Below, one piece after another: positions 5,246 through 38,893 of a stretch of 39,803 nucleotides of DNA; position 1 is the stretch's first letter; every line of letters starts with the position of its first letter. The DNA is taken from the IMG/VR virus record IMGVR_UViG_3300010332_000004, positions 1 through 39,803 of that record; one strand, written 5' to 3'. The notes beneath the pieces are model-generated. The model did no database searches. It was not told the DNA's origin and was given only the letters and a program-made list of their open reading frames with translations. The position numbers were made by a program, and so were the translations under genes. The DNA is from a virus.

Positions 5246-5246
5246 G

Positions 5247-6326: not shown

Positions 6327-6515
6327 ATGAGGATTAGAATAGATGATCGTAAGGCCATCGTCAGATTTGCGTCAGATGAAGAACGAAAGAAATTTCTGAA
6401 TGTTCTAATGGAAGTATGGGAGAAGCTCGGCATGCCATTAGTGGTCAGAAACAAAGGGCATGTTAAATTTGAAATAACTCCAAAGAGGCTGAAGGAGTAT
6501 GAGCAAGAAATATGA
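6327..6515 (+). CDS. Small hypothetical protein upstream of nrdD
   Basis: The start ATG at 6327 follows AGGTGGTGAC, a good ribosome binding site; an upstream ATG at 6297 lies inside the DUF2061 gene. The 62-residue product 'MRIRIDDRKAIVRFASDEE...' is charged and shows a beta-alpha-beta-like pattern, ending 'RLKEYEQEI'. It overlaps the nrdD start by 17 nt, so it is co-translated with the reductase. No family is recognised and no catalytic motif is visible. It may be a nucleotide-metabolism accessory because of its position, but nothing in the residues proves this. Confidence 0.6.
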   Translation: MRIRIDDRKAIVRFASDEERKKFLNVLMEVWEKLGMPLVVRNKGHVKFEITPKRLKEYEQEI

Positions 6516-8568
6516 TCCTACGGACCTGGCAGTCTACGTTAGAACTAGTCACGAAGAACTTCAGAAGTGGGATCGAAATAAAATAGCAGAGGCTTTAGTG
6601 AGAGAGACATCGATTTCAAAAGAAGCAGCAGCAATAATAGCTTGTGAGGTTGAGAAGACAATAAAGAGCTTAGGCCTAAAGAACCTCACGACGACCCTCA
6701 TTAGAGAGCTCACGAATGCAAAGCTCATTGAATATGGCTTAGAGCATATAGCTAAACAGCACTGCAGATTAGGTGTTCCAGTATATGACGTCGGTCAGAT
6801 TATAAAGAAGCCAAACAAAGAGAACGCCAATGTTCCTCATGGACCAGAAGCAACTAATCTCACGCTAGCAGAAAGCATAAAGAAAGAATACGCTTTGCTC
6901 AAAGTGTTCTCAAAAGACGTCTCAAGAGCTCATGTAACAGGAGCACTTCATTTACATGACCTTGGAATGATAGACAGGCCCTACTGCTCCGGTCAGAACA
7001 TCGACTACATAAAGAAATTTGGGCTTAATCTGCCTAATGCAGCGTCAATAGCAAAGCCAGCTAAGCATCCAGAAGTTCTCATTGGTCAGCTCATTAAATT
7101 CTCTGCAGCTCTGCAAGGTCATTTTGCAGGAGCTATTGGATGGGATGCAGTCAATCTTTTCTTAGCACCATATTTAGTCGGAGTTGATGATAAGAGAATG
7201 AAGCAGCTAGCCCAAATACTCGTTTATGAATTCGCTCAGCAAGCAGTAGCGAGAGGAGGCCAAAGCATATTCAGTGATTTAAACATCTATTGGGAATGCC
7301 CATCTCATTTTGAGGATGTTCCAGCAATAGGACCGGGAGGTAAATTCACGGGCAATACTTATGCTGATTACATTGAGGAGTCAAAGAGGTTTGCTAACGC
7401 TCTATTTGAGGTCTATTTAGAAGGTGATGCATTAGGAAGGCCGTTCTTCTTTCCCAAACCAAATGTTCACATCACAGAAAAGTTCTGGAATGAGCCTGAC
7501 CACGAAGAGTTCCTCTATCTCATCAGCAAAGTAGCAGCTGAGAAAGGCAACACCTACTTCATCTTTGACAGACATGGCACAGCTAAAGTATCAGAATGCT
7601 GCAGACTTGCATTCCTCCTCAATGAGAAGGACTTAGAGGATGCTAAAGAGCCGTGGAAGATGAGATACTCTGCAATGCAGAATGTTACTATTAATCTGCC
7701 GAGAATAGCTTATGAGGCTAATGGTGATGACGACAAGCTCTTTGAAATATTAGCAGACAGAATGAGGCTTGCAGCTAAGGCTCATGTGCAGAAGAGGCAA
7801 TTCTTAGAAAAGTTGCTTAAGCTCGGAAAGAATGGCCCATTAGCTTTGCTCACAATAGACTATGACGGAGAGCCATATTACAGACTTCACAGAGCAACCC
7901 ATCTCTTTGGCATACTCGGCCTTAATGAAATGGTTCAGTATCACACGGGACAAGAGCTACATGAATCAGATGATGCATTCTACTTCGGGCTAAGAGTTAT
8001 AGCTCAGATGAGAAAACTAGCAGATGAGCTGATGGCAGAGCACGATAGCAAATTAATCTTTGTCTTAGAGCAGACACCAGCAGAATTCGCTGCCTATAGG
8101 CTCGCTAAATTAGATCTCAAGAACTTCCCAAAAGAAGCTGCTAAAGTGGTCAAGGGCAATATAAAGACTGATGAGGTCTATTACACCAACTCGACTTATC
8201 TCAACATCTCAGCTCCAATAGATCCAATTGAGAGAGTGCAGAAGGAAGGAGTGTTCCATCCATTAATAGAGGCTGGAGCATTAACTCATGTATGGCTTGG
8301 TGAATCCAAACCAGATCCCGCCTCAATAGCCTCATTTGTAAAGAAAACCTTCGACAAGACTCAGAATTCACAGATTGCATTCTCTCCAGAATTTACATCC
8401 TGCCTGTCATGTGGTAAAGTTTCAAGAGGACTGAAAGACCAGTGCCCATACTGTGGCTCAAAGGACGTAGAAGGCATCACGAGAGTAACCGGCTTCTTCT
8501 CAAAGATTACATCGTGGAACAAAGGCAAATTAGGCGAGCTTAAAGACCGCTACAGAGTGAGACTATGA
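6499..8568 (+). CDS. nrdD: Anaerobic (class III) ribonucleoside-triphosphate reductase
   Basis: This 689-residue protein has full NrdD architecture. An N-terminal ATP-cone-like regulatory region (about 10-90) is followed by the ten-stranded barrel with 'LHLHDLGMIDRPYCSGQNI', 'YEFAQQAVARGGQSIFSDLNIYW' and 'FFPKPNVHI'. The C-terminus has a four-cysteine zinc site ('CLSCGKVSRGLKDQCPYCG') and the glycyl-radical loop 'RVTGFFSK' with Gly665, followed by 'WNKGKLGELKDRYRV'. It reduces NTPs to dNTPs without oxygen after the glycyl radical is made by the activase encoded immediately downstream (ATGA overlap). Several tailed phages carry NrdD/NrdG to supply dNTPs for replication. Its presence indicates an anaerobic host. 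Confidence 0.97.
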   Translation: MSKKYDPTDLAVYVRTSHEELQKWDRNKIAEALVRETSISKEAAAIIACEVEKTIKSLGLKNLTTTLIRELTNAKLIEYGLEHIAKQHCRLGVPVYDVGQIIKKPNKENANVPHGPEATNLTLAESIKKEYALLKVFSKDVSRAHVTGALHLHDLGMIDRPYCSGQNIDYIKKFGLNLPNAASIAKPAKHPEVLIGQLIKFSAALQGHFAGAIGWDAVNLFLAPYLVGVDDKRMKQLAQILVYEFAQQAVARGGQSIFSDLNIYWECPSHFEDVPAIGPGGKFTGNTYADYIEESKRFANALFEVYLEGDALGRPFFFPKPNVHITEKFWNEPDHEEFLYLISKVAAEKGNTYFIFDRHGTAKVSECCRLAFLLNEKDLEDAKEPWKMRYSAMQNVTINLPRIAYEANGDDDKLFEILADRMRLAAKAHVQKRQFLEKLLKLGKNGPLALLTIDYDGEPYYRLHRATHLFGILGLNEMVQYHTGQELHESDDAFYFGLRVIAQMRKLADELMAEHDSKLIFVLEQTPAEFAAYRLAKLDLKNFPKEAAKVVKGNIKTDEVYYTNSTYLNISAPIDPIERVQKEGVFHPLIEAGALTHVWLGESKPDPASIASFVKKTFDKTQNSQIAFSPEFTSCLSCGKVSRGLKDQCPYCGSKDVEGITRVTGFFSKITSWNKGKLGELKDRYRVRL

Positions 8569-9257
8569 AGATTAAAGGCTTTCTCACCACTTCTTTTTCT
8601 GATTGGGATGGTAAAGTATCTTCAGTGATCTTTCTACCACGCTGTAATTTCAGATGCCCAATGTGTCATAATCATCAGCTCGTATCGAATCCCGATAGCT
8701 TGCCAACGGTCAGAAAGAAAGATATTGTTAAATGGCTCACAGCTAAAAGAGATTTTATAGACGGCGTTGTTGTAACAGGAGGTGAGCCTACAGTTCATAA
8801 AGATCTTGAGGATCTGCTGAAAGAATTGAAGGATTTGGGCTTTGATGTAAAGCTCGATACTAATGGCAGTCATCCACTCATTCTAGAATACCTCATTGAA
8901 CAGGAGCTAATAGACTACATCGCAATGGACATTAAGGCACCGCTAGATCCACAGAAATATTCAGAGCTTGCTGGCGTCAAAGTCGACATCAGAAAGATAG
9001 GCCAGAGCATAGGCGTCATTATGAGCTTTGGCATAGACTATGAATTCAGAACTACAGTGCCACCAACACTCACTAAACAAGACGTCTTCAATATAGCCCG
9101 TGAGATAGAAGGAGCAAAGAAATACGTCCTACAAAGGTTCATACCAGACAATGCACTCAGTCCTGAATATCGTAAACTCAAGCCTTATACTGAGGATCAG
9201 CTCAAAGAAATGGCTGAAATATGTAGGCTTGTGTTAAAGAATGTGAAGGTGAGGTGA
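8565..9257 (+). CDS. nrdG: Anaerobic ribonucleotide reductase activating protein (radical SAM)
   Basis: This 230-residue protein has the CxxxCxxC cluster site at Cys27-Cys31-Cys34 ('RCNFRCPMCHN'), 'VVVTGGEPTVHKDLEDLL' (the GGEP SAM-binding motif) and 'VKLDTNGSHPLILEYLI', typical of the anaerobic NrdG/PflA class. It uses a 4Fe-4S cluster and SAM to form the glycyl radical on NrdD Gly665. Its start overlaps the nrdD stop as ATGA, which fixes the partner. It is longer than E. coli NrdG and closer to the archaeal form (sometimes labelled pyruvate formate-lyase activase-like). Confidence 0.93.
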   Translation: MKIKGFLTTSFSDWDGKVSSVIFLPRCNFRCPMCHNHQLVSNPDSLPTVRKKDIVKWLTAKRDFIDGVVVTGGEPTVHKDLEDLLKELKDLGFDVKLDTNGSHPLILEYLIEQELIDYIAMDIKAPLDPQKYSELAGVKVDIRKIGQSIGVIMSFGIDYEFRTTVPPTLTKQDVFNIAREIEGAKKYVLQRFIPDNALSPEYRKLKPYTEDQLKEMAEICRLVLKNVKVR

Positions 9258-23638: not shown

Positions 23639-24091
23639 TTAATCGTGAATCTTAACTCCAGCGTTACCAATAGGCTCTGCCGTTACATTGTGTGGATCCA
23701 AGACTACGAAGTCAACACTGCCCTCTGTAACTGTATTGGCATCACCGACGCTGATATCGAAACCCGTGATAAGACCGCTTGCAAAGTAGAATCTCAATGA
23801 TTTGTCTCCTGCACAGCCAGATATAGACACCGTTGTGCCATTTAAGAGGCTCTCTAAGAGGACTCCCGCTGCATCTGGTGCGAGTTTCGTAGCTGTGAGG
23901 CTCCCTTCAACTGTCAAGGAACCTGCCTGATGATAGTTACCCTTCTCTCCGACAAGCTCTGTTTCGATAGTATCCCTGCTGAGTGTTATTGTGAAATCTG
24001 AGAGACCAAGTGTGCTGTGAGTCTTGCCTGCAATTGTTATTCTTGCATTCTCACCCGTATAGGTCTCAGGCATTACTCCAGCCATACTCAT
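23639..24091 (-). CDS. Tail tube protein paralogue 2
   Basis: This 150-residue beta-rich protein aligns along its length with the gene just upstream: 'GLSDFTITLSRDTIETELVGEKGN' versus 'GISDFSLTFSRDVVEQELVGQPGN', 'GSLTVEGSLTATK' versus 'GAITIEGSLTNCK', 'FDISVGDANTVTEGSVDFVVLDPHNVT' versus 'YEVSFGDASTITEASIDFRVLDPYNVT'. Tail tube subunits of siphoviruses have this two-sheet fold and position before the chaperones. It starts on an ATGA overlap. Either both copies form the tube as hetero-rings or one is a specialised tip or neck ring. Confidence 0.8.
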   Translation of the reverse strand: MSMAGVMPETYTGENARITIAGKTHSTLGLSDFTITLSRDTIETELVGEKGNYHQAGSLTVEGSLTATKLAPDAAGVLLESLLNGTTVSISGCAGDKSLRFYFASGLITGFDISVGDANTVTEGSVDFVVLDPHNVTAEPIGNAGVKIHD

Positions 24092-24531
24092 GCATCAGAT
24101 ATATGGCCGGCAGTATACGTCACGTTGTATGGATCGAGGACTCTGAAGTCTATACTCGCCTCTGTGATAGTTGATGCATCTCCGAAGCTTACTTCATAGC
24201 TCGTTACTTGTGCTGAAACGAAATAGAAGCTGAGGCTGCCTGTTCCTAAGCTGCCTGATATGATTATTTTCTTTGCGTTTACTATGCTGTCAAGAGCATC
24301 CCAGTTACCGCTTGCAGCAAATTTGCAGTTTGTGAGACTTCCTTCAATTGTTATTGCTCCCGGCCTTCTGAGATTACCCGGCTGGCCTACGAGCTCCTGT
24401 TCTACGACGTCTCTGCTGAATGTAAGGCTGAAGTCAGATATGCCCCAAACTGTTACCCCTTTCTCTCCGAGCTTTGATGCATCAGTGCTTATGAAGATCT
24501 TTGCCTCCTTTCCGGTTATTATTCCTGCCAT
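24088..24531 (-). CDS. Tail tube protein paralogue 1 (probable major copy)
   Basis: This 147-residue protein, 'MAGIITGKEAKIFISTDASKLG...', is the first of two paralogous tube proteins. GAGGTG lies just before the ATG, and a TATA-like CTTAATATATGTT sits exactly 30 nt upstream (24562-24574), the same spacing as for the capsid gene. A dedicated promoter suits a protein needed in high copy. The repeated beta-hairpin pattern 'DFSLTFSRDVVEQELVGQPG' and 'SIDFRVLDPYNV' is typical of lambda gpV/HK97 gp6-like tubes. Confidence 0.82.
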   Translation of the reverse strand: MAGIITGKEAKIFISTDASKLGEKGVTVWGISDFSLTFSRDVVEQELVGQPGNLRRPGAITIEGSLTNCKFAASGNWDALDSIVNAKKIIISGSLGTGSLSFYFVSAQVTSYEVSFGDASTITEASIDFRVLDPYNVTYTAGHISDA

Positions 24532-26479: not shown

Positions 26480-27454
26480 TCACTTGGCAAGGATCCTTAC
26501 TCCAGCGTCATCTCTGAGTACACCGACTCCGAACCTCATCTTTGCTGTTATGCCGACTAAGTCGTGTATTGGATCCTCATACTGCTCGATTGTTATGTCG
26601 TCCCTCATTACTATGACTGCAGTGTTCTGGCTGTCAAGTACTAATGCATAGTAGTGGTTGTCAGCATCAGTTCCATCCCAGTATACTCCAGAGTTTGGCT
26701 CAGCGGTTACACTGAGCGTCCAAGGCTTGAGACCGAGTAGCCTTGGTATCGCTCCTTCTCTGAGTGGTGCTTCAGTTCCTGCATAGCAGACGTAGACTAA
26801 GTTGCTGTCCTGTAGGAGCTGAGCTTCTGCCATTGGGTGCGTAATGAGCGTGTCTGGCATCCAGTTCTTTGCTTTGACAGCTCCTACTGCTTTTGCGATG
26901 TCAGTAACTGCGAGGTGAGTGCCGGCTGGATCAATGTCGGATATTCCATCCAATTCCTTGAGCAATGTTGTGAGAACTACTCTGTTGAGCGTGTTCTCAA
27001 GCCTGAAACCTGCCTTTCTGATCTCGTGCTCTATGATGTTGAAGAGGCAATCATCAACCATCTCTTTGGTTATGAGTGGTCTGGTTGCATATTTCTTTAC
27101 CTCAACGTCAATCTTTGAATAGTCTTCCTGCCCAACTGGTATCTCTGCACCCTCAGCTACTTCTGATGCATAGGTTCCAGCTGCTCCTGCAATGAACCTA
27201 ACTGCATAGCTCTTGGTCTTCTGTATTGGAAATACCTCTCTTACGCATCTTGCTGGCTCTGCTCCCTCATAGACTTTCTTGATGACCTCCTCCTGTAAGA
27301 GCGTTGTCTCACTTATATCCTCTGCCTGTAAGAGCTCTTTGACTGCCCTCTCACCGACTATTTTCTTGAATGCCTCTGAGTCGAGCATCCTCTTCCTCTC
27401 TGCATTCCCTGCAAATGCGTATTCTAAGAGTTTAACAAACCTGCTCTCTGCCAT
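26480..27454 (-). CDS. HK97-fold major capsid protein
   Basis: The ATG at 27454 gives MAESRFVKLLEYAFAG (about 324 residues); an upstream ATG/TTG frame to 27475 lacks a better site. The sequence shows the HK97-fold order: an N-terminal helical arm, 'EGAEPARCVREVFPIQKTKSYAVRFIAGAAGTYASEVAEGAEIPVGQEDYSKIDVEVKKYATR' (N-arm to E-loop), the spine helix 'EMVDDCLFNIIEHEIRKAGFRLENTLNRVVL', and A-domain 'NWMPDTLITHPMAEAQLL...LLGLKPW'. No large delta domain is evident, consistent with a separate scaffold in the 530-residue protease protein. A TATA-like CTCGATGTATGTT lies 30 nt before the ATG. Confidence 0.92.
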   Translation of the reverse strand: MAESRFVKLLEYAFAGNAERKRMLDSEAFKKIVGERAVKELLQAEDISETTLLQEEVIKKVYEGAEPARCVREVFPIQKTKSYAVRFIAGAAGTYASEVAEGAEIPVGQEDYSKIDVEVKKYATRPLITKEMVDDCLFNIIEHEIRKAGFRLENTLNRVVLTTLLKELDGISDIDPAGTHLAVTDIAKAVGAVKAKNWMPDTLITHPMAEAQLLQDSNLVYVCYAGTEAPLREGAIPRLLGLKPWTLSVTAEPNSGVYWDGTDADNHYYALVLDSQNTAVIVMRDDITIEQYEDPIHDLVGITAKMRFGVGVLRDDAGVRILAK

Positions 27455-27484
27455 ACCAATCACACACAATATCAATTACATGCC

Positions 27485-27920: not shown

Positions 27921-29513
27921 TTACCACTCTTTGAACTTTACCTCTCCACCATCAATTATGATCTCTGGCTCATCATGAGCTGCTGCTTCCTCCTCTGCAA
28001 CCTTGGTTTCTGGCTCCTTCTCTGCCTTCTCAAGAGCTGCTATCCTCTCTTCAAGGGCCTTAATTGCATCCTCTTTGGCTTTTACTGCAACTTTTACGTC
28101 TTTGAGCTCATTGATTGCGTCTTTAAGAGCCTTAAGTTCCTCTTTGATTTCCTTCATTTCATCCTCTGCCATCTGAGTTGGATATGGATACTGCGTTGGG
28201 TATGGATATTTCGTTGGATATGGATACCTTGTTGGGAATGGATACGGATATGGATACCTGCCTGCCCTTCTGAGGTTTGCAAGCATTGTCAATACTGTGT
28301 CCAATTTGCTCTGAACCTTCTTCGGACAATCCTCGTATATCTCCTGAAGGACTGCAGTGATTGCGTCTACAAGTCCTGCCTTCTCCTTCTCCTCTGGATT
28401 CTCCTCGGATTTCTCCTCTGCATTTTCCTCTTCAGATTTCTTCTCGCCGAATGCCTCCTGTATTACTTTTTCAAGAGCCTCGAGCCTCCTCTCAATCGCC
28501 TCAACCTTTGCCTCTATGTTAGTTTCCTCTTCTGTCTTTTCTTCAGTGACCTCAACCATCTCGTCTGTCATATCTCCTTCCTTATCTTTCACATTTGAAC
28601 ATTTCTCGAGAACAATGAAGCCACTCTTGTCGTTAACTGGATTCTTGCATACAGAGACTTCGAAGATATTGATTTTGTCAATGACATTGTAGCACTGAGA
28701 CTCGTTGCATTCCTGATGTTGTTTGATTATCTCACCTGCGATAGAAAAACCGTTATATTCACCTTCGAGGATTTTCTCCCAAACTTTATTGGCGATGTCG
28801 AGATCCTGCCTGATCTCAGCAATTATGAAGAGACCTTTGTCATCTACATGCGTCTTAAGGCCTTTGTATTCTGGCAGAATCTTTCCGATTTGGACGTTGT
28901 TATGAGTAAGCATGAGATTTGCATAGCTCGGATCATTGAGAAGAGTCTTGATACCTTCCTTGAGAGCAGATATCGGAATTATATCACCTGATTTATCAAG
29001 CTTTACATAGGAGGCGTAGCCAGCAATGATTCTTCTACCAGCCTTTGAAATGATCTTGAATGAACCGCCTAAATGAACAGGCTCTCTCTCACCCATTCTA
29101 ACCACCTGTGGATTTGGAATTGGCATCATGGTGTCTTCGTAGATTGGCACATAGCACGTGAAGGGACCGGTATTAGTGTAGTGAATGTGAACATAGCGAG
29201 CAACTTCGTCGTAAGGAACCTTAAGAATGTCAGCAAACATCCTGTAGATTCTGAAGTCGAAAGCCATCTTCTGCTGCGGAGACCAATCCTCACCTCTGAC
29301 AACGATATCAATATCATTGTTCGACTCACCGTGGTTAGCAAGCGATCCGACTATGAATGCAACAGGCTTTCTAACCGAGAAAGGCTTAAGCTTTGGAAGT
29401 ATATCGGAAAGTTTGATCTTCTTCTTTAGATGACCTCTTCCACTGGGCGGAATTGGTGCATACTCCAATTCAAGACCTTTACGAGTAAGTCTCTTAAGCT
29501 CCTCAGGATTCAT
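27921..29513 (-). CDS. Nucleotidyltransferase-prohead protease-scaffold fusion
   Basis: This 530-residue protein has four parts. Residues about 45-125 carry a nucleotidyltransferase signature, 'FIVGSLANHGESNNDIDIVV' (Gly56-Ser57, Asp67, Asp69), the G-S-x9-D-x-D core of the Pol-beta/MNT superfamily. Residues about 148-302 resemble XkdF/S78-type prohead proteases: 'AGYASYVKLDKSGDIIP', 'LMLTHNN' (His204), 'NGFSIAGE' (Ser257) and 'INIFEVSVCKNPVN'. Residues 315-415 are acidic coiled coil like a scaffold. Residues 420-446 hold repeated YPYPT units, then another coiled coil. Protease fused to scaffold just upstream of capsid is normal; the N-terminal transferase domain is not. It overlaps the XhlA-like gene as ATGA. 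Confidence 0.8.
   Translation of the reverse strand: MNPEELKRLTRKGLELEYAPIPPSGRGHLKKKIKLSDILPKLKPFSVRKPVAFIVGSLANHGESNNDIDIVVRGEDWSPQQKMAFDFRIYRMFADILKVPYDEVARYVHIHYTNTGPFTCYVPIYEDTMMPIPNPQVVRMGEREPVHLGGSFKIISKAGRRIIAGYASYVKLDKSGDIIPISALKEGIKTLLNDPSYANLMLTHNNVQIGKILPEYKGLKTHVDDKGLFIIAEIRQDLDIANKVWEKILEGEYNGFSIAGEIIKQHQECNESQCYNVIDKINIFEVSVCKNPVNDKSGFIVLEKCSNVKDKEGDMTDEMVEVTEEKTEEETNIEAKVEAIERRLEALEKVIQEAFGEKKSEEENAEEKSEENPEEKEKAGLVDAITAVLQEIYEDCPKKVQSKLDTVLTMLANLRRAGRYPYPYPFPTRYPYPTKYPYPTQYPYPTQMAEDEMKEIKEELKALKDAINELKDVKVAVKAKEDAIKALEERIAALEKAEKEPETKVAEEEAAAHDEPEIIIDGGEVKFKEW
28164..28256 (-). repeat. Short tandem coding repeat (YPYPT units) in the protease-scaffold gene
   Basis: The plus strand shows repeated TTGGATATGGATA-type units about 18 bp apart, encoding YPYPT on the minus strand (residues about 420-446 of the fusion protein). 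It is a Pro/Tyr-rich hinge between two coiled coils. Copy number could vary by slippage. Confidence 0.7.
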
Positions 29514-29746
29514 ATTAGCTTAAGCAATGCGGTGAACAACATAGCAACGAGAGAGCAAATTGCAGTTGTAACCCACCAATAAAGTTTAACCTTTGTTTCA
29601 ACGGCAACTAAACGCTCCCTCAGATCTTTCACTTCGCTCCTCAAGCTCTTGATTGATTCTGCCAATTGGTCGTCGGACTTATTCAAGGCCTCTAATGCAG
29701 CTAATATCTTGCCGAATAGCTCTGCCATAGTCTCTTTGTCGAGCAT
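29510..29746 (-). CDS. XhlA-like coiled-coil membrane protein
   Basis: This 78-residue protein has a coiled coil (about 15-52, 'LAESIKSLRSEVKDLRERLVAVETKV') and one C-terminal membrane helix ('YWWVTTAICSLVAMLFTALL'). This is the layout of hemolysin XhlA-family proteins, which cooperate with holins in host lysis. It is placed inside the head module just before the protease gene, far from a normal lysis cassette. It could act with the holin-like protein at 38651-38893. Confidence 0.7.
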   Translation of the reverse strand: MLDKETMAELFGKILAALEALNKSDDQLAESIKSLRSEVKDLRERLVAVETKVKLYWWVTTAICSLVAMLFTALLKLI

Positions 29747-29842: not shown

Positions 29843-30868
29843 TCAACATCCCAACTTTTCTTTGAACCTCTGAATTGATTCCTCTCTATATGCTTCACGA
29901 CCGAATTTCTCAAGATCCTCTGCAGGAATCGGCCAATAATGACCAGTGTCGCAGTGTTTAATCGAGTCCATTGGATACGGATCCTTCGTAGCCTTCCATA
30001 CCCACCATCTCTTTGCTTTGCCTTGTTTAAAGCATCTGATTATGAAGCGACCATTAAAGAGCTCTTTGTTCCTCTTTGGCAAATCATCTTGTGGATAGAG
30101 GAAGTATTCGTGAAGATCGCCTCTCTGAACTCCAGCTTTAGCTTGGCCAAGCCAAATACAGCACATAAAGGCGTCTTTGTAGGGCGTGGCTCCTACATCA
30201 CCAGCCTCAATTATATAGCTGTAGTCGAAGAGTACGTATTTCTCAATTTCCTTTGCATCCTTAGGATCAATGATGGGTTCGTCTTTCTCTGCCTTAAGGG
30301 CTTTTGTAGGCCTCTCCTCCGGTTCTAAAGCAGATGGTTTCACTATGGCCAATCCCTTCGATACATTCCCAGTTCTCGGATCATGTCTACCAATTAGCGT
30401 GTCAAAGTAGTCTGGTATCTCATTCTGAGTTATTACCCATTGAACGAAAGCCTGCTTAAACTTCATTCTGAGGTCAACGTGAATAGAATGGCCCTGAATG
30501 AGCTCAGCAAACGAAAGCTTACCGCTTCTGTATTTCTTTGTATCATCGGGATCGAGACCACGAATATGCATCTGAGCCCAAGCGAAAGCTTCTCCATAAT
30601 CAACGTAAAGGATCTCAGGCAATGGCTGAAGTGGCTTCGCTATCTCTTCGTAAACCTCTTCTGGTATTGCTTTCTTTTGAAGCCACTCACAAACGTCTTT
30701 CTTTGTTATTGCTTTAAGAAGTACTTCGATTTGAGCTGGCAGCGGTAGATGCTTAAAGAGCTCAGAATGATAGATAAGCGTTGCATCATAGCGATCTATA
30801 GGCTCAAGTGATTTAATATCATCAACGTAAATGACTCTTCCGTCTTGGCTCACTAATTTAAAAGGCAT
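29843..30868 (-). CDS. LigD 3'-phosphoesterase (PE)-like protein
   Basis: The ATG at 30868 follows AAGGAG by 7 nt and overlaps the ATP-grasp stop by 11 nt, so I prefer it to the frame start at 30901. The 341-residue product shows 'FAELIQGHSIHVDLRMKF' (His127, His130, Asp132, Arg134) and 'FVQWVITQN', comparable to the 'Q.H....LHYDLRLE...SWA' core of LigD phosphoesterase domains. Later come 'IIEAGDVGATPYKD', 'DLHEYFL' (His253), 'FNGRFIIRC' and 'WWVWKATKDPYP', consistent with that beta-barrel family. Spacing between the first two histidines is shorter than in LigD. PE domains remove 3'-phosphates and ribonucleotides to make ends ligatable. The adjacent DNA ligase supports the call, which remains moderate. 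Confidence 0.5.
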   Translation of the reverse strand: MPFKLVSQDGRVIYVDDIKSLEPIDRYDATLIYHSELFKHLPLPAQIEVLLKAITKKDVCEWLQKKAIPEEVYEEIAKPLQPLPEILYVDYGEAFAWAQMHIRGLDPDDTKKYRSGKLSFAELIQGHSIHVDLRMKFKQAFVQWVITQNEIPDYFDTLIGRHDPRTGNVSKGLAIVKPSALEPEERPTKALKAEKDEPIIDPKDAKEIEKYVLFDYSYIIEAGDVGATPYKDAFMCCIWLGQAKAGVQRGDLHEYFLYPQDDLPKRNKELFNGRFIIRCFKQGKAKRWWVWKATKDPYPMDSIKHCDTGHYWPIPAEDLEKFGREAYREESIQRFKEKLGC

Positions 30869-32234
30869 AGCCAAACTCCTTAGCTTTATCGAGAAAGACA
30901 TTCAAATAGCTTGCAAACTCTCTGCCTTGAACATAGATGTTCTGCATATCGAATGATTCCGCTCGCTTAATTGCATCAGAAATGGCTGCGGATAGCGAAT
31001 TTCCAGCTGAAACGGCCACTGCAACCACGGGATCACCCGGCACATACCAATCTTCTTCCAAACGAACTGCCTTTCGATACGCAATCCACTCCGGTTCAGC
31101 TGAGTGGTGAATTATCCTCCACGAATCTGTATCGTCAGTATAGACGCCTATCTGCACTGAATACCTGCCTTTTAATCGTGGAGCCTCAATTTCTCCTCTT
31201 GCAAGACTCAAGAGCATTGAATCAAAGTTCTCAATGACCTTGGGATAGGCATAGGAGCAAATGTAAGGAAAGCGAGGAGTTACATCTGTGACACGCAATA
31301 CGCCATCATAGAAGCCTTCTAAACAGAAGAGGCCGTAATATCCATTCCTTGCAAGCCAAGGTTCGAATTTTTCCAACGTAGTGAACCAAACACTGTCCTC
31401 GATTTTATTGAATTTCGTGGCATTTCCACAGCCTTTCATCTCAATTGTGTCGGCAACTATTGGCAGGAACTCCCTTCCATTGAAGAATGCATCAACACCA
31501 ACCTCAATGCCCTTCAATTCCTCCTCTAAGACGAACTCAAGTTCGCTACCGAAGACGGGAAAACCGCCTTTTGATAGTAGAGTTCTAGCCTCCTCAGGAT
31601 CATCTGTCCCAAATGTTTCGATATCTCCACGCATTCTGTTGATTTTCACATACAATTTACGCTTTGCTTGGGCTATAGCTTTAATGACTTCTTCGACTCC
31701 TTTGATAACTTTGCCGTCTGGAACATTTATATCCAAGCGTTTCATAACCTTTCTGGCGTAAACACGATCAAGCTCTAAGCGTTCTGACTTACCATCAGCT
31801 CCGATGACATAATAATCCTTTGATCTCAGCCAGTCTGCCAAGTGCCCAAAACCGGAATCAGTGAAGATTACATACTCTGCTCCAAGTTCAAGGCCTTCAC
31901 CCCAATCCCAAATTTTCTGAATTTCCTCAAAGCCGTAACCACTCACCTCATCTCTTAGACGTGGATAAGGCTGTCCATGAACTATGGCATAATAGACGAG
32001 ATGACCTGCTGCACCAAGAGCAAGGGCAAGTTCCAAAGCAAGATTCGTATCAACTACTAACACTGTCTCTTGAGCAGGAGAAGGATCAGTTGCTTTGTAG
32101 TAATAGCAGCCATCTTTCTTGAAAATATGCTTGTCCTTTAGGACAGAGCCATCTACAATCTTTGCTTTCTTCCATGCAGATTCATTGAGCAAGTAAAGCG
32201 AATTATCTTTAAGACTCCTAACTTTCAGCTGCAT
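30858..32234 (-). CDS. ATP-grasp enzyme, PurD-like
   Basis: This 458-residue protein has an N-terminal Rossmann-like segment ('ETVLVVDTNLALELALALGAAGHLVYYAI'), then a pre-ATP-grasp/PurD-like region ('ADGKSERLELDRVYARKVMKRLDINVPDG'). The ATP-grasp core follows: 'KLYVKINRMRGDIETFGTDD', 'VLEEELKGIEVGVDAFFNG' and 'NGYYGLFCLEGFYDGVLRVTDVTPRFPYICSYAYP' with metal-binding acidic residues. ATP-grasp enzymes join a carboxylate to an amine or thiol through an acyl phosphate. No purine-synthesis gene is nearby, so glycinamide-ribotide synthesis is unlikely; ligation of an amino acid, peptide or nucleotide-linked amine is more probable. The start overlaps the ligase stop by 10 nt. Confidence 0.72.
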   Translation of the reverse strand: MQLKVRSLKDNSLYLLNESAWKKAKIVDGSVLKDKHIFKKDGCYYYKATDPSPAQETVLVVDTNLALELALALGAAGHLVYYAIVHGQPYPRLRDEVSGYGFEEIQKIWDWGEGLELGAEYVIFTDSGFGHLADWLRSKDYYVIGADGKSERLELDRVYARKVMKRLDINVPDGKVIKGVEEVIKAIAQAKRKLYVKINRMRGDIETFGTDDPEEARTLLSKGGFPVFGSELEFVLEEELKGIEVGVDAFFNGREFLPIVADTIEMKGCGNATKFNKIEDSVWFTTLEKFEPWLARNGYYGLFCLEGFYDGVLRVTDVTPRFPYICSYAYPKVIENFDSMLLSLARGEIEAPRLKGRYSVQIGVYTDDTDSWRIIHHSAEPEWIAYRKAVRLEEDWYVPGDPVVAVAVSAGNSLSAAISDAIKRAESFDMQNIYVQGREFASYLNVFLDKAKEFGYAF

Positions 32235-34981
32235 AGAACGTCTTCCACTACGAAGACATCATCATTAAGAACCAGCAAATCACCTTTCTTTGGTGTTGCC
32301 TTTTCTATTTCGAGCCTCTCTCTCAAATGACGGAGCTCTTCAATTGGCATTCTAACCGGCTCCATGGATGCGAGCTTATCTATTGTTTCGATCGAATCCG
32401 TGACGTGCTTCTCTGGAATTGGCTCGAGCACTCTGCCAATGTAGAAACTGTAGCGAGGATACCTCGGATCTTCTGGATTATCGTACTTTAAGACCTCTTC
32501 GGCTGCTATACGAATGATGTCGCCTATCTCAATAGGTGTTTCTTCTTTATGATTGTCTGATTTGCCCATGTAAGCAACGAAATAAACGTCATCTCGATCA
32601 AGGTACTCAGCACATTCTTTGCCTTCCGCTATCACTTCCTTGCCCTTCATACAGTAGACTTTGCCATACCAATCCTTTGTACCGACTTCCAGATATGCTC
32701 TTGCAAAGTCCTTTGGAATATCGTAGCCTAAACGATAGTTATAGACGTCTTTGGTTCCCTTTACAAGTTTCTTGCCAATGACTCTTAGATCCAGCTCGTG
32801 GTAGAATTTCACTTTCATCCAGCCTTTATTCTGGCCTTCTTCGTATGGCCAATCTAACCTCTTAAGCATTACTCCTTCAGCACAGAATTTCGGCCTGCCA
32901 TTCTTGGCTTCTCTAATGATTTCAGCAGCCCTCATTATGCATTTGATATCAGAGCCTTTGCAGATATAACCATCGGCTTTCTTATCAAACGTGGTTGCAA
33001 CACGCTCAATCCAGATGTGATCTGTTTCTTTCAAACGGGAAAGATATTCAAGACGCTCGTGAAGTGGCTGATCTCTGATATCAAGACCCTCAAAGAACAT
33101 AACATCGAAGACCGCAATGACTGCAAACGGTTCCAATTCCTCGCCAGATAGCTTTGAATTGATAAGAGCATTCGCAACCGTTCTGTGAAACATCTCTTTC
33201 TTCTCGGGATTATACGCCAAGAATTCTGCATCAAGTATTGTGTTATTCGGAAAGCTTTCTTCCATTTCTCGAATTATTCCCGGAATACGCTTTGTGACAT
33301 TTGGATCTTTCTCTTTGACGTCCTCAGGATTAACAAATGCAAAGCCTTTGCCTCTAATCTTTCCGACAGTTAGCCTTAAGCCATCCCATTTACAATCCAC
33401 CAAGAGGTTAACTTGATCCCAACCAATTGCTTTCAATTCCTCTTCAAGCTCTTGGAAATATCCTCTGTAGTAAGGCTTGGTGTTTGAATACCAACCGGGC
33501 TTGAGCTTTGCCTTCTCTTCCTCTTCACTCTTCGTCTTAATTATCTCCTTTCGCTTTTCATCCCATTCCTTTGCTTCTTCGAGAGTGCTTGGAGGTTTAC
33601 TCTTCATGTATTTTTCTGCCTCTTTATAGCATTGCCAAAATGATGATTCCTTGGCTTTCTTCGGATCTTTACCGGTGTAAGCTTTGTAAAGATCTTCGTC
33701 AAACGGTGGAATTAACGGGAAGTAGACGGAACGAAGCGTATCAACGATCTTAGCGAAATAGCGATAAACATCATCGAGAGTCCATTCACCCCATCTCTCT
33801 CCTCTCTTCAATCGTGGATACGCCGAATTCCCGAGATAGCGAAGATCCGCAATTAATTGCCTCCATCTTTCCTCTGGATGAGCAAGATCATAATCGATGC
33901 CTTCAGAACGGAACTCCTCAAGATGAAGCTTCTCAATAGTGCAATACTGCTCAATATCTTTAACGAACGTCTGAATGCCCTGTGGAAGATTGACGGCTAT
34001 CTTTTCCTCAAAGGGCTTAAACGCTAGGACTTCGTAGCAATATAGTGGAAAGCTCCAATGCCACTTTTCAACTTCGTCTGGAGTTACCAAATGATATGGT
34101 GCAAGCAGTAAGAATTCACGCCAAGAGCGAATTATCTCCGGTTCGCCGACAACAATGATTCCGTAGGCGTAGTCATTGTCGCAAAGAACAAATTGTTTAT
34201 GAGCGATATCGAATTTTCTGCTCTTGAGGATCATTGTCTTCTCGCCGGCTGCAATCAGCTCAGCATGAGGCTTCACGAGATACATACCGTCCATTTTCTC
34301 GATGATTGCCTTTGCTGTTATCTCAACTTCACTTCCATCGGTTAAAATTTCGCCACCCCAAGGCTTAAGCTCTTCAAGGATCTTTTTCTTATGCCTCATG
34401 AGTGAAGTGCGATAGTTAGTGAGATAAATTTTTCTCGGATTAAGCTCTTTGGCAAGCTCTATAAGATCTTTGAAGGTTGCCTTATGATCATCAGGCTTTG
34501 GAGTTTCATACTCACCAACACCGATCACCCAAGCACATCCGTTCATTAAGAGCTTTTCTCTCTTACCAAGGCGTATGAATTCTGGGATGACTACTAAACC
34601 TTTCTTGCCAGTTCCGAATTTGAATGCAACCGCAGGTTTGCCAACCATTTCGGGAATGCTTATGAGCTTGATCGGAAGGCCGTCGATTTTAATTGGCTTT
34701 TCGGGTGCCTTCCACTTCGCATCAGGAACGAGCGTTTTCATTATGGACACAACTGCTCTCGTTGAAACTACCGGAACATCTGGATATTTCTTGATATAGT
34801 GCTTGAGATATCTCCAATGATCCGCATCCGGTGAAGAGAGCAGGATCAAATCAACTGGCTCAGTGTATTTCACAGCTGGATCTATCCAAACTTTCTTGCC
34901 TTTGTGTTCAATGATGAGAGAAAAATGCTTCTTGCCCTTTAAGCCCCAAGACGCCCAAGATCCAAGGCTGATTATCTTCAT
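32225..34981 (-). CDS. Metallo-beta-lactamase fold / ASCH-like / ATP-dependent DNA ligase fusion
   Basis: This 918-residue protein has an N-terminal metallo-beta-lactamase fold (about 1-215) whose metal motif is degenerate: 'LLSSPDADHW' at 47-56 keeps Asp-His but lacks the two histidines of HxHxDH. Residues about 228-345 resemble an ASCH/PUA-like nucleic-acid-binding domain ('MYLVKPHAELIAAGEKTMILKSR', 'GIIVVGEPEII', 'LPQGIQTFV'). Residues about 500-800 are an ATP-dependent ligase: motif I 'DCKWDGLRL' (Lys531), motif III 'LDAEF' (583-587), IIIa 'FDVMFFEG' (625-632), IV 'AEGVMLK' (701-707) and V 'WMKVKF' (721-726), then an OB-like end. All catalytic ligase motifs are present, so sealing of nicks is expected. 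It is ATGA-coupled to the HIT-like gene. Confidence 0.85.
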   Translation of the reverse strand: MKIISLGSWASWGLKGKKHFSLIIEHKGKKVWIDPAVKYTEPVDLILLSSPDADHWRYLKHYIKKYPDVPVVSTRAVVSIMKTLVPDAKWKAPEKPIKIDGLPIKLISIPEMVGKPAVAFKFGTGKKGLVVIPEFIRLGKREKLLMNGCAWVIGVGEYETPKPDDHKATFKDLIELAKELNPRKIYLTNYRTSLMRHKKKILEELKPWGGEILTDGSEVEITAKAIIEKMDGMYLVKPHAELIAAGEKTMILKSRKFDIAHKQFVLCDNDYAYGIIVVGEPEIIRSWREFLLLAPYHLVTPDEVEKWHWSFPLYCYEVLAFKPFEEKIAVNLPQGIQTFVKDIEQYCTIEKLHLEEFRSEGIDYDLAHPEERWRQLIADLRYLGNSAYPRLKRGERWGEWTLDDVYRYFAKIVDTLRSVYFPLIPPFDEDLYKAYTGKDPKKAKESSFWQCYKEAEKYMKSKPPSTLEEAKEWDEKRKEIIKTKSEEEEKAKLKPGWYSNTKPYYRGYFQELEEELKAIGWDQVNLLVDCKWDGLRLTVGKIRGKGFAFVNPEDVKEKDPNVTKRIPGIIREMEESFPNNTILDAEFLAYNPEKKEMFHRTVANALINSKLSGEELEPFAVIAVFDVMFFEGLDIRDQPLHERLEYLSRLKETDHIWIERVATTFDKKADGYICKGSDIKCIMRAAEIIREAKNGRPKFCAEGVMLKRLDWPYEEGQNKGWMKVKFYHELDLRVIGKKLVKGTKDVYNYRLGYDIPKDFARAYLEVGTKDWYGKVYCMKGKEVIAEGKECAEYLDRDDVYFVAYMGKSDNHKEETPIEIGDIIRIAAEEVLKYDNPEDPRYPRYSFYIGRVLEPIPEKHVTDSIETIDKLASMEPVRMPIEELRHLRERLEIEKATPKKGDLLVLNDDVFVVEDVLCS

Positions 34982-35334
34982 TTCTTCAGCCTCAGATCCG
35001 GTAAAGTCCGTGGATCACGAGCCATACATTCAACGTAAGCGTGGAAATGATCTGGAATGTAAGAACGATCTATACGAAGGAAGATGCCTTGGCCAAATAA
35101 CTTTCTCGCATGATAAAGCATGTGGCCCCAGCGAGTCTTATCAACCGCTGGAATATGCTCTGATGCTACCACAACAGGCCTATGCCTCTTTGGGCAATCG
35201 ATGATAATCAAAGAACGATCGCCAATCAGATCCGGCTCTGGATAATAAAGCTTGGTGATTGGAAATTTTTTCTTTATGATCTCGCAGAATGGGCAATCGT
35301 CTACTAAGATTGGCCTATCGTAAATATCAGTCAT
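34978..35334 (-). CDS. HIT-like nucleotide-binding protein
   Basis: The ATG at 35334 gives MTDIYDRPILVDDCPFCEII (118 residues); a GTG at 35355 would add seven. The Cys pair 'CPFC' (14, 17), 'HRPVVVASEHIP' (51-62) and 'DHFHAYVE' (His96, His98) follow the HIT order, though the third His of HxHxH is Tyr100. HIT proteins hydrolyse or transfer nucleoside monophosphates; aprataxin, a HIT enzyme, removes AMP left on DNA by failed ligation. The next gene is a DNA ligase, coupled by ATGA, which makes an aprataxin-like role attractive but unproven. It overlaps the protease gene by 8 nt. Confidence 0.6.
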   Translation of the reverse strand: MTDIYDRPILVDDCPFCEIIKKKFPITKLYYPEPDLIGDRSLIIIDCPKRHRPVVVASEHIPAVDKTRWGHMLYHARKLFGQGIFLRIDRSYIPDHFHAYVECMARDPRTLPDLRLKK

Positions 35335-35815
35335 CTTTGATTTTCGCCTCCTCACACGCAGGCTCAGTTACAACCGCACAGCCAATGAATTCGATTTCCT
35401 CAACCTCAAACGCCTTCTCTTTATAGTTGTAGCTATCGATTGTTGCAACTTCAGCGGAAAGTGAATTCACTAAGCCGTTGTCGATGAGATTAATGACGTC
35501 TCTGCCCGCTGAAGTGTATGGAAAGATGTAAAGATCAGCTTTGACAGCGTTGTCTTCCCATCTCGGATTCTCAACGTAGCCTATACGATGGAGAACCGAA
35601 TGGGAATGATCCACATTGAGATAGTTGGATGACCAATTCGTAGCGTATTTCCTTAATACATCAGCCCTCCAGATGACCCAATCCTTCGTGACACGGTCAG
35701 CGTATCTGCCGGGTGTTAGAATCGTAGCTCCTCTGTAAATCTTTGCTGCAGTGCTCTTAGACTTAACTGCTGCATCAAATCTGAATGGAATATCAATCCA
35801 TCTCTTCTTCATCAT
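35327..35815 (-). CDS. Prohead protease-like protein (XkdF/S78-like)
   Basis: The ATG at 35815 is 6 nt after GGTGG; another ATG at 35821 lies directly on that site. The product (about 162 residues) contains 'YRGATILTPGRYADRVTKDW', 'NYLNVDHSHSVLHRIGYVENPRWEDNAVKADLYIFPYTSAGRDVINLIDNGLVNSLSAEV' and 'EFIGCAVVTEPAC', the His/Ser order of phage capsid-maturation proteases (His in VDHSHS, Ser in NSLSAEV). It follows the portal directly, the classical position. A second protease-like domain exists in the 27921-29513 protein. Confidence 0.75.
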   Translation of the reverse strand: MMKKRWIDIPFRFDAAVKSKSTAAKIYRGATILTPGRYADRVTKDWVIWRADVLRKYATNWSSNYLNVDHSHSVLHRIGYVENPRWEDNAVKADLYIFPYTSAGRDVINLIDNGLVNSLSAEVATIDSYNYKEKAFEVEEIEFIGCAVVTEPACEEAKIKDD

Positions 35816-37052
35816 CTTCATCCACCTTTACGCTTTTGAGTTTGGCTTCCGCTTCAGCTATCTCTTCTTCAGATAATGGTGGGAAGCCAAACATCCTCCT
35901 AACCTCGTTGATTGTAAATGGCTTGACTTCGCCTCTGTAAGCACGAAGCAAACTTCCAAGCCACTTTGCCTTCATCGCCTCATCCTCGTCCGTTACGCTT
36001 CTGAAGATCACTCTAGGTTCCTCATTTTCAAAGCCTTCACCAACTAAGAACGGTTTGAAGATTTCCCTCTCCAGGAATCTTGAGAGCTTGAGTTGGAATG
36101 ATTTAATCATCCTCTCATACATCAACGCCTTTACTCTTGCTGTTGCTTCCGTTGAGCCTCTGCCAAGACCGAGGGCTTCCTCGGGGCAAAGCAAACCGAC
36201 AACAAGCTGAGATTGGAAGTAGTTGAAATAATCCTCGACGCCTTTGATTCCTTTCTCGTCGATTGTGTCGATCTTAATGAGCCATGGAACAATGATTTCA
36301 TTCTTCTCGGAGATATTCCTCAACTCACGCTTAATTTCCTCAAAGACGCTATCGGGAATATTCTCCGTAACGCCTTCTGAGCCTACTGAAACAATATACT
36401 TCGGAGTTCCGTGTCTGATGATAGCGTTTGCAATCGCTTTATCAGTTCTGACTTTACGCTTTAACGTGTCGATATTTGGTTGAATCAGCGAGACACCGTA
36501 TGGGCTATCGGGCTGAGGAAAGAATCTGAAGTGAGCAATGTACTTCGGATCGATCAATTCAGACGGTTGGCCGTTGATGATCTGACGGTAGCCTTGAATT
36601 CTTCCATATTCGTCGTATTCGATTGTCATAGTGATTGGATTCACAACCTTGATGTTAAGAAGTTTTGTCTCGGACTTATTGTAGATTCGCTCGAGGAAGG
36701 CATCGCCAAAGACGAGACAGTAAATGGTGGCATCCAAAAGCTTGCTGTCAAGATCGGTTCTGCGTCTGAATTCTTCAATAGCCTGATGGGCTTCAGGTGA
36801 AATGCCGTAGACCTCAAAGCCTGACATCACTGTGTTCCACGCTGTATAATTGATTGCTGCAAAGATCGTGTTTTCCTGAGTGTAGTATTTCCAAAGATTG
36901 CGGAGATTCGTTGGAGTCCTTTCCCAAGCTGTGAAAGAGAATGAAAGATCAACAGACGTAGATTTGATCAAAGTCCTTGGTCTGCCTTCCTCGTCTGTGA
37001 AGAATCTCCTCCTTCTGAAGAGGTTTGCTAAGCTACGGAGATTAAACCTCAT
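35793..37052 (-). CDS. Portal protein
   Basis: This 419-residue protein shows the portal pattern: 'TPTNLRNLWKYYTQENTIFAAINYTAWNTVMSGFEV' at the front, 'LLDATIYCLVFGDAFLERIYN', 'PKYIAHFRFFPQPDSPYGVSLIQPNIDTLKRK' in the clip/wing region, and 'EEALGLGRGSTEATARVKALMYERMIKSFQLKLSRFLEREIFKPFL' as stem and crown helices. It forms the dodecameric DNA channel at one capsid vertex. It is ATGA-coupled to the Alba gene and ends with an acidic tail (DEDDEEEMD). Confidence 0.95.
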   Translation of the reverse strand: MRFNLRSLANLFRRRRFFTDEEGRPRTLIKSTSVDLSFSFTAWERTPTNLRNLWKYYTQENTIFAAINYTAWNTVMSGFEVYGISPEAHQAIEEFRRRTDLDSKLLDATIYCLVFGDAFLERIYNKSETKLLNIKVVNPITMTIEYDEYGRIQGYRQIINGQPSELIDPKYIAHFRFFPQPDSPYGVSLIQPNIDTLKRKVRTDKAIANAIIRHGTPKYIVSVGSEGVTENIPDSVFEEIKRELRNISEKNEIIVPWLIKIDTIDEKGIKGVEDYFNYFQSQLVVGLLCPEEALGLGRGSTEATARVKALMYERMIKSFQLKLSRFLEREIFKPFLVGEGFENEEPRVIFRSVTDEDEAMKAKWLGSLLRAYRGEVKPFTINEVRRMFGFPPLSEEEIAEAEAKLKSVKVDEDDEEEMD

Positions 37053-37299: not shown

Positions 37300-38679
37300 T
37301 CACCTCCCTTCAATTTTTTCGACTTTAAGCAGTTTGTTAATGGAGAGGACCTTCATGGCTTCGTTCCAATCAAACTTTTGTGAATGAGATGCCTCGAGTG
37401 CAAAGGCAAGTGCATCAATGCAGTCGTCGTTCTTTCCTCTCGGGAAGGCTAACAGCTCGTCAATCAAATCAACCTGATCTTCCTTCAAGAAGATACGACC
37501 AGTCTCAAACAACACAGAAAGTCTCTCAACACGGGATGCTTTATCGCCAGTAAACTTTAATGGCACTATCGGAAGGGTTGTGGTCCTTCTCAGCTCATCA
37601 GTAATAAGCTTTTGCATTGCGTTGGCTTCAATTCCAATCTTTGACGGTTGCCATTTCGCATACATTTCCTTGATGAGATCGAACTGACGGAATAATGTTG
37701 CCTTCGTTCTGAGAAGATCAAGAACGTAAACATCACCGTTATCTGCTATTCCAATTACGCAGATCACGAAATAGTCACTCGTTTGGGATGCTGCTGCCAT
37801 ATCAACGCCCATGTAACGTCTTAGATTCTGTGGAGCTTCATCGTAATATCGGATCCAATCCCATTTGATCACTGCATCTTCAGGACTGATGAACTCATTT
37901 TGATACTGCATAGCGAATCTTGCTCTTCCGATCTGGTTACGAATTGAAACGAGCGTTTCATACGGAAAACGTTCCGGCCATAAAACGATCTTCTTCTCCT
38001 CGTCGATGATTGCTCTGTAAACCTTCGATTTAAACATTGGCTTTTGCATCAGCCATGCGTGGATGTCAGCCTGATGCCAACGAGTTCCGATGTCAATAAT
38101 TTGACCGTCAGGCAGAAGCATTGGCAAGAGAATTTGGCTGTACCATTCCTCAAGCTGTCTTCTGCGATGCTCAGTTCGGGAGTTTTGATAATCCGTGATA
38201 TCATCGAGAACGATTAAATCGTAGTGACCTGAGATCATTTTCGAGTCGACACCAAGCACTTCAAGCGTTGGCTCTTTGTGGGCAATGCCTGATTGACCTG
38301 CTCTCTTCACTCTGATTTGATTCCTGCTCCATTCACCAGTTCCTCTCTGCTCACCAAACAAATCAATCAGCTTCTCATTGTGCTCAAGATGATACTGAAT
38401 GAAAGTCATCATCTCGTTGGCTTTGTTCTGATTGATCGTTACGATGAGGATTCTGATGTCAGGATCACGAACAATTCGCCAAATGATGTAGCCACCAACG
38501 ATAGTTGTCTTGCCAAATCCACGAGGTGCAAGCAGGACACAGAAACGGTTCTTCTCAAAGAATCTCAACCACTCCTCGTGAAACCATTTAACCTCTAATC
38601 CGAGAATGTCTCTGCAGAATGCAACCGGATCATTCGCATAGTAAAGCAGTTTAAGAGCTTCCTTCGCCTTCGTCTTCAT
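37300..38679 (-). CDS. terL: Terminase large subunit
   Basis: The ATG at 38679 follows GGTGA by 8 nt; an ATG at 38697 would add six residues. This ~459-residue packaging motor has Walker A 'LLAPRGFGKTT' and 'RILIVTINQNKA' in the ATPase half, Walker B 'HYDLIVLDDIT', coupling motif 'IIDIGTRWHQ', and the nuclease half with 'YMGVDMAAASQTSDYFVICVIGI' and 'GKNDDCIDALAFALE' acidic metal sites. It cuts concatemers and pumps DNA into the prohead. It overlaps the holin-like gene and ends inside the Alba ribosome binding site. Confidence 0.96.
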   Translation of the reverse strand: MKTKAKEALKLLYYANDPVAFCRDILGLEVKWFHEEWLRFFEKNRFCVLLAPRGFGKTTIVGGYIIWRIVRDPDIRILIVTINQNKANEMMTFIQYHLEHNEKLIDLFGEQRGTGEWSRNQIRVKRAGQSGIAHKEPTLEVLGVDSKMISGHYDLIVLDDITDYQNSRTEHRRRQLEEWYSQILLPMLLPDGQIIDIGTRWHQADIHAWLMQKPMFKSKVYRAIIDEEKKIVLWPERFPYETLVSIRNQIGRARFAMQYQNEFISPEDAVIKWDWIRYYDEAPQNLRRYMGVDMAAASQTSDYFVICVIGIADNGDVYVLDLLRTKATLFRQFDLIKEMYAKWQPSKIGIEANAMQKLITDELRRTTTLPIVPLKFTGDKASRVERLSVLFETGRIFLKEDQVDLIDELLAFPRGKNDDCIDALAFALEASHSQKFDWNEAMKVLSINKLLKVEKIEGR

Positions 38680-38893
38680 CGCTGTCTTCACCGTCATTTC
38701 TATGCTTTAAGTAGTTCTGCAATGCCCTCAAGAACGCAATTATACATCCAGTCCAGATTGCATACTCAGGTGGAAACTCAGTAACCTCAAGAAAATCGAT
38801 CGTATAAGCTATTGCAGCAGTCGCAAGAGCAAAGCCAAGGCCCTCTAAGAACTTACGAAGAGTGATCTTCCAATCAAATCCTCCCTCACTCAT
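38651..38893 (-). CDS. Holin-like two-helix membrane protein
   Basis: This 80-residue protein has two membrane segments ('LEGLGFALATAAIAYTIDFLEV' and 'YAIWTGCIIAFLRALQNYLKH') and an acidic C-terminus (DGEDSDEDEGEGSS). This is typical of small phage holins that open the membrane at the end of infection. It lies between terS and terL, overlapping both neighbours, and so would be expressed with packaging genes. Lysis function is inferred from topology only. Confidence 0.65.
   Translation of the reverse strand: MSEGGFDWKITLRKFLEGLGFALATAAIAYTIDFLEVTEFPPEYAIWTGCIIAFLRALQNYLKHRNDGEDSDEDEGEGSS

Follow-up and report, generated by a model that had tools for sequence, protein, structure and literature searches.

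A putative LigD-like DNA end-healing and sealing gene set among the head genes of an environmental tailed virus

Why would a tailed virus keep enzymes that heal and seal nucleic-acid ends among the genes that build its head? This question is raised by a virus record from an environmental metagenome (IMGVR_UViG_3300010332_000004), whose 39,803 bases are referred to here as the window. From the letters of the sequence, the original prediction had read four genes as encoding a HIT-like protein, an MBL/ASCH-like/ligase fusion (LIG), a PurD-like ATP-grasp enzyme and a LigD-PE-like protein. It had placed them, co-directional and overlapping, between portal/protease 1 and protease 2/capsid, with which the ORF coordinates agree (Table 1).

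Layout of the head operon

As identified by Pfam and PHROGs searches, the window holds a Caudoviricetes head module in the order TerL, portal, prohead protease and HK97 capsid. All ORFs of the block and of the head lie on the minus strand, along which TerL is followed by an 84-aa protein, portal, the S78 protease 1, HIT, LIG, ATP-grasp and PE, with overlaps of 4–44 nt between neighbouring genes and zero gaps from TerL to PE. At a distance of 96 nt beyond PE, a small coiled-coil protein, protease 2, another small protein and the HK97-fold capsid complete the arrangement. Protease 1 retains its candidate catalytic His and Ser in an alignment with its relatives. Most relatives encode the small coiled-coil protein (29510–29746) at this position too, flanked by PE and protease 2.

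Elsewhere in the window, two adjoining genes (23639–24091 and 24088–24531) cross-match in relatives and look like a duplicated tail-tube-like pair. On the plus strand, two GT2-like glycosyltransferases are clustered with a SPASM radical-SAM protein (2572–6128). The window also contains a PAPS reductase-like gene (1604–2461) and NrdD/NrdG (6499–9257), auxiliary genes that have likewise been reported from ANME-1 viruses (PMC9894754).

Table 1. Features of the block and of the neighbouring head genes, with positions in the window.
Feature	Position	Strand	Evidence or context
Terminase large subunit TerL	37300..38697	-	PHROG_38 E=1e-102; Pfam Terminase_6C
Portal protein	35793..37052	-	PHROG_9232 E=3e-21; Portal_Mu
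Protease 1, compact S78-type prohead protease	35327..35821	-	Peptidase_S78 E=3e-4
HIT-superfamily protein	34978..35355	-	PDB profile matches; alignment A6
HIT motif HFHAY, third His replaced by Tyr	35035..35049	-	alignment A6
LIG, MBL-ASCH-ligase protein, 918 aa	32225..34981	-	Pfam DNA_ligase_A_M E=7e-16; Foldseek; PDB matches
MBL motif site SPDADH (canonical HxHxDH lost)	34817..34834	-	alignment A2
Ligase motif I KWDG (K531)	33380..33391	-	alignments
ATP-grasp, PurD-like, accessory	30858..32234	-	GARS_A E=4e-6
PE, LigD-type 3'-phosphoesterase, 352 aa	29843..30901	-	AlphaFold model with Foldseek/VIA
PE motif HxDxR (H141, D143, R145)	30467..30481	-	alignments
Small coiled-coil protein, hydrophobic C-terminal helix	29510..29746	-	between PE and protease 2
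Protease 2: N-terminal NTase, S78 prohead protease, coiled-coil scaffold-like tail	27921..29513	-	Peptidase_S78 E=4e-11
NTase motif GSLANHGESNNDID	29307..29348	-	alignment A4
HK97-fold major capsid protein	26480..27475	-	Phage_capsid E=2e-9

The enzymes of the block

LIG is composed of a degenerate MBL domain (residues 1–220), a part that resembles ASCH domains in sequence only, a helical WQCY domain, an ATP-dependent DNA ligase (about 500–740) and a C-terminus that likewise resembles OB domains in sequence only. The best solved matches of the ligase part in a PDB search are DNA ligases, and the ligase motifs KWDG (I), DxE (III), EG (IV) and KxK (V) are invariant in alignments of the window's lineage. 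The RNA_ligase profile scores weaker than the DNA ligase profile on these ligase domains by many orders of magnitude. The AlphaFold model of LIG is poor across the ligase region (mean pLDDT 51.5) and was therefore considered for the MBL domain alone; this domain adopts the MBL fold (Foldseek E=1e-11) and matches PhnP-type and Apyc1 structures, among others. In the alignment, the canonical HxHxDH has become SxDxDH and the His of motif 5 an Asn, so that most metal ligands are gone; a relative-type protein in contig L064 carries an intact motif, HLHPDH. Since the metal site is degenerate, an active nuclease role of the MBL domain is unlikely in the window's lineage.

The identity of PE had to come from structure comparison because the PDB sequence-profile search gave chance matches only; Pfam and PHROGs returned no match at all. 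An AlphaFold model of the protein (likely start ATG 30868) was built on ten sequences and reached a mean pLDDT of 72. With this model, LigD phosphoesterases occupy ranks 1 to 3 in Foldseek (E 0.0065 to 0.043), and the best six PDB matches in VIA are all LigD PE, with Z of 5.8–7.5 over 113–124 residues and a next match at 3.1, while BFVD gave no convincing match. A middling Z proves little by itself; the clear gap to the next match, an alignment that spans the full domain and the motifs are all concordant with a PE fold and support this assignment of the model. To our knowledge, the PE beta-barrel fold has been described as confined to the LigD 3'-phosphoesterase clade. Six catalytic residues are known for the Methanocella PE, i. 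e. H40, H46, D48, R50, H82 and Y86, of which H40, H46 and D48 form the metal site and R50 the phosphate site (PMC4797286). H112, H141, D143 and R145 of the window's PE are the counterparts of H40, H46, D48 and R50 and are invariant across its lineage, with a longer stretch between the first and second His than in LigD. No clear counterparts of H82 and Y86, i. e. of two of the six catalytic residues, were found in the sequence alignment.

For the HIT protein, whose likely start is an internal ATG at 35334 that agrees with the start in relatives, a PDB profile search retrieved HIT proteins with borderline significance (E=0.0046 and 0.03). Its zinc ligands C21, C24, H67 and H103 match CxxC-type HIT proteins in the CxxC, the His after it and the triad's first His. 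The triad itself reads HxHxY in the window, HxHxH (HWHAH) in L013, L014 and L039, and HxCxH in L021. Apart from the window, only L002 and L005 among the related contigs have the ATP-grasp gene.

A further, NTase-like domain lies at the N-terminus of protease 2. It has zero Pfam matches and carries the NTase motif GSx9DID, the key residues of which are invariant or nearly so; in addition, residues 19–126 are homologous to the N-terminus of an NTase-ligase-PE protein of the virus ANMV-1 (E=1e-14). Judging from its fusions to ligase or protease elsewhere, the NTase belongs to the conserved set.

Much of what had been read from the letters was thus borne out. The HIT-like protein is supported by its borderline PDB matches and by the conserved CxxC, H and HxH, the LigD-PE-like protein by its fold (Foldseek, VIA) and metal-site motif, and the NTase domain foreseen on the large gene after PE by its motif and the ANMV-1 homology, with the refinement that this gene is protease 2. 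Two proposals stood in part. The MBL/ASCH-like/ligase fusion has intact ligase motifs and an MBL fold, but the suggested nuclease has mostly lost its metal ligands; likewise, the ATP-grasp protein is PurD-like as proposed, yet with three contigs it is not a member of a conserved set.

Conservation and recurrence

In the window's lineage, 13 related contigs were found; several of the contigs compared are fragments. In every relative that spans the region (L002, L004, L006, L007, L008, L013, L014 and L021), HIT, LIG and PE occupy the interval from portal/protease 1 to protease 2, and the position of HIT is kept in all relatives. LIG and PE form a single ORF in L006, L013, L014 and L021, the MBL part is a gene of its own in L021, and LIG and ATP-grasp share one frame in L005. 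Such joining and splitting of genes argues strongly for a joint action of ligase and PE. With pN of 0.09–0.23, similar to portal and TerL, HIT, LIG and PE are under purifying selection; saturation of the synonymous sites mostly precludes a dN/dS ratio. Recurrence and purifying selection together exclude chance as the source of the block, and HIT-LIG-PE recurs as a unit in all 8 spanning contigs of related viruses.

Several of these genes carry intein-like in-frame insertions, namely LIG in L007 (5582–9295) and TerL, PE and protease 2 in L014 (3862–6294, 8565–12455 and 12860–15676), where PE and protease 2 have LAGLIDADG/Hint matches. The host is likely archaeal. Genome bins of relatives name Thermoplasmata and Planctomycetota and are too inconsistent for use, and short DNA matches occur in three genomes, none of them within CRISPR-like repeat arrays.

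Beyond this lineage, ligase and PE recur in several other arrangements. ANMV-1, which of 50,697 phage records was the only one to match both ligase and PE, encodes an NTase-ligase-PE protein (AJP62006) directly after the portal; the scan returned no close viral relatives of this protein, and its record reads 'ATP-dependent DNA ligase' only, leaving PE, NTase and the head link unannotated. A longer architecture, NTase-methyltransferase-ligase-PE-XkdF protease, was found in 11 contigs, some of which end inside it. It is mostly a single polypeptide, is spread over two or more frames in L051 and L054, and is placed between portal/MuF and scaffold/capsid. In L047, for example, the order is TerL, portal, MuF, polyprotein, scaffold and capsid, the last of these being a PHROG_1623 'virion structural protein' that is named capsid by position. 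The PE motif is present in these polyproteins as well, and ANMV-1 has M in place of R. In L039, a HIT gene lies immediately upstream of the polyprotein; beside both, a MuF protein with a C-terminal ADP-ribosyltransferase domain is encoded (5308–6108). Other contigs show NTase-ligase-PE followed by a protein that by eye, and without a profile match, is like protease 1 (L068), TerL and portal followed by an ASCH-MBL-ligase-PE protein of 1144 aa (L064), and NTase-PE-XkdF without ligase in a TerL-portal-MuF-capsid cluster (L065, 9990–12005). The L065 locus is provirus-like, and the genome in which it lies belongs to the same phylum as the Thermoplasmata bin. In the polyprotein ligases of L039, L047, L054 and L056, the motif III Glu is replaced (DASM/DSSM/DCSM/DSSL vs DxE), and these ligases may be impaired or of different chemistry.

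TerL, portal and protease belong to different families in the various viruses with ligase and PE, so that the association either dates back far or formed more than once. Outside the related viruses, ligase and PE hence recur in rearranged form and with other terminases, portals and proteases. As far as sequences can tell, the fusion to prohead proteases elsewhere makes the link to the head stronger than gene order by itself would.

Possible function and site of action

With a PE fold, an intact ligase, HIT and overlapping genes, the view of an end-healing and sealing set within the head operon has gained support. On balance, the block probably encodes a LigD-like module which heals and seals DNA ends, is expressed late along with the head proteins, is tied to the prohead and acts on viral DNA. 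PE would trim or dephosphorylate damaged 3' ends that carry a 3'-phosphate or a 3'-ribonucleotide, the ligase would seal nicks or joined ends, and the NTase on protease 2 could add nucleotides or modify ends in another way. HIT might clear nucleotide adducts such as 5'-AMP from failed ligation, for which aprataxin provides only an analogy. Against this reading stand the replacement of the motif III Glu in the polyprotein ligases and the loss of the ligase in L065, which suggest that sealing is not always needed.

Prohead proteases of tailed phages work inside the prohead, which makes it probable that an enzyme joined to one becomes part of the prohead too. Via its fusion to protease 2, this probably applies to the NTase of the window. 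Within the lineage of the window, neither ligase nor PE is joined to a protease; by analogy with the fusions in other viruses, we infer that they enter proheads as well. The substrate would be the virus's own DNA, either nicks and ends at packaging or the freshly injected genome, if the enzymes travel in the head. Tentatively, we place action after delivery into the next host, with ends or nicks healed or sealed before gene expression, slightly ahead of action during packaging; taken singly, each is less likely than not.

How far do other explanations account for the same genes? They could form an ordinary viral ligase set for replication or recombination, whose late-operon place beside the head genes is functionally meaningless. 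Each virus record, contigs of 69 and 89 kb included, contains one ATP ligase, a finding that speaks for the preferred reading and equally makes a use in replication possible, and late operons do carry unrelated genes, as the ATP-grasp gene that comes and goes illustrates. This explanation is nevertheless unlikely, given that these enzymes also occupy the portal-to-capsid interval of viruses whose terminases, portals and proteases belong to other families, and that they are joined to prohead proteases there. Still less can be said for the proposal, offered as an alternative in the original prediction, that ATP-grasp and NTase covalently tag a head protein: the operon holds both genes, but most relatives lack ATP-grasp and the ligase and PE would be left without a role, which makes it very improbable.

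A virion-delivered kit for RNA repair or counter-defence, in which HIT, NTase, methyltransferase, PE and ligase mend host or viral RNA after cleavage by anti-viral nucleases or destroy nucleotide signals, draws on several of the same observations. LigD PE proteins act on 3'-ribonucleotides too, and the PhnP-type and Apyc1 structures among the matches of the MBL model would suit the destruction of signals. Furthermore, jumbo phages pair RNA ligases with NTases and end-healing enzymes (PMC7824862). Against this stand the scores of the ligase, which are those of a DNA ligase, and the degenerate metal site of the window's MBL domain, and we regard such a kit as improbable, slightly more so than the replication set. 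The reading we prefer is thus still that of a prohead-linked module for healing and sealing DNA ends.

Among known systems, this module invites comparison with archaeo-prokaryotic NHEJ, as represented by LigD and, in Methanocella paludicola, by individual Pol, PE and Lig proteins. In both, ligase and PE are neighbours or fused, the PE fold is common and a nucleotide-adding enzyme is found alongside. In contrast to these systems, the viral genes lie among head genes and, in other viruses, are fused to prohead proteases, PE shows no recognisable counterpart of two catalytic residues in the alignment, and a Pol-beta-type NTase takes the place of a LigD-type primase-polymerase. No AEP primase-polymerase was among the Pfam matches of the 29 window proteins scanned, in a record that may not cover the whole virus. 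Ku (PF02735) was found in none of 19 virus records, several of them fragments, and end joining would hence need another bridging factor. The mycobacteriophages Omega and Corndog are tailed phages with LigD-type end joining in infection, for which, in the account of Pitcher 2006 cited in PMC7719229, they encode Ku and borrow the host LigD, whereas the viruses described here encode ligase and PE, with no Ku found.

Precedent for enzymes that travel in virions is provided by virion-packaged multidomain, or polyvalent, proteins (T4 Alt, P1 DdrB, N4 vRNAP and MuF fusions; PMC5512222), which are likewise multidomain, encoded beside virion genes, linked to peptidases and predicted head passengers. 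The word 'ligase' is absent from this survey, and delivery of the enzymes described here is a prediction from gene order and prohead-protease fusion. A further parallel is gp18 of Arthrobacter phage Salgado, in which an XkdF prohead protease encoded close to the portal likewise carries a nucleic-acid end enzyme; there, the enzyme is from a different superfamily and without a ligase domain. The gene (L024, 5293–6414) is annotated as 'RNA ligase' and actually encodes a 2H phosphoesterase-XkdF protease fusion.

The component enzymes are of known kinds. A ligase-PE module within the head operon and joined to prohead proteases was not found in the literature searched, and searches on LigD or XkdF with phage heads and on ANMV-1 with ligase gave nothing relevant; as coverage was incomplete, this is weak evidence that the combination is unreported. 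A bolder version of the preferred reading, which we advance as a speculation, would see a Ku-free and self-contained LigD-like machine that enters the prohead via the maturation protease, is delivered with the genome and heals and seals ends before viral expression, in several groups of tailed viruses that are largely archaeal.

For the protein families concerned, the analysis suggests what a PE family missed by Pfam and PHROGs is likely to do and adds new ligase-PE architectures for study. If the proposed role is true, head assembly and DNA end repair, so far regarded as separate processes, would become linked, and the survival of nicked or open-ended viral genomes through packaging and entry would become testable. 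In the bolder version, the block would represent a virion-borne DNA repair system that has hitherto not been described.
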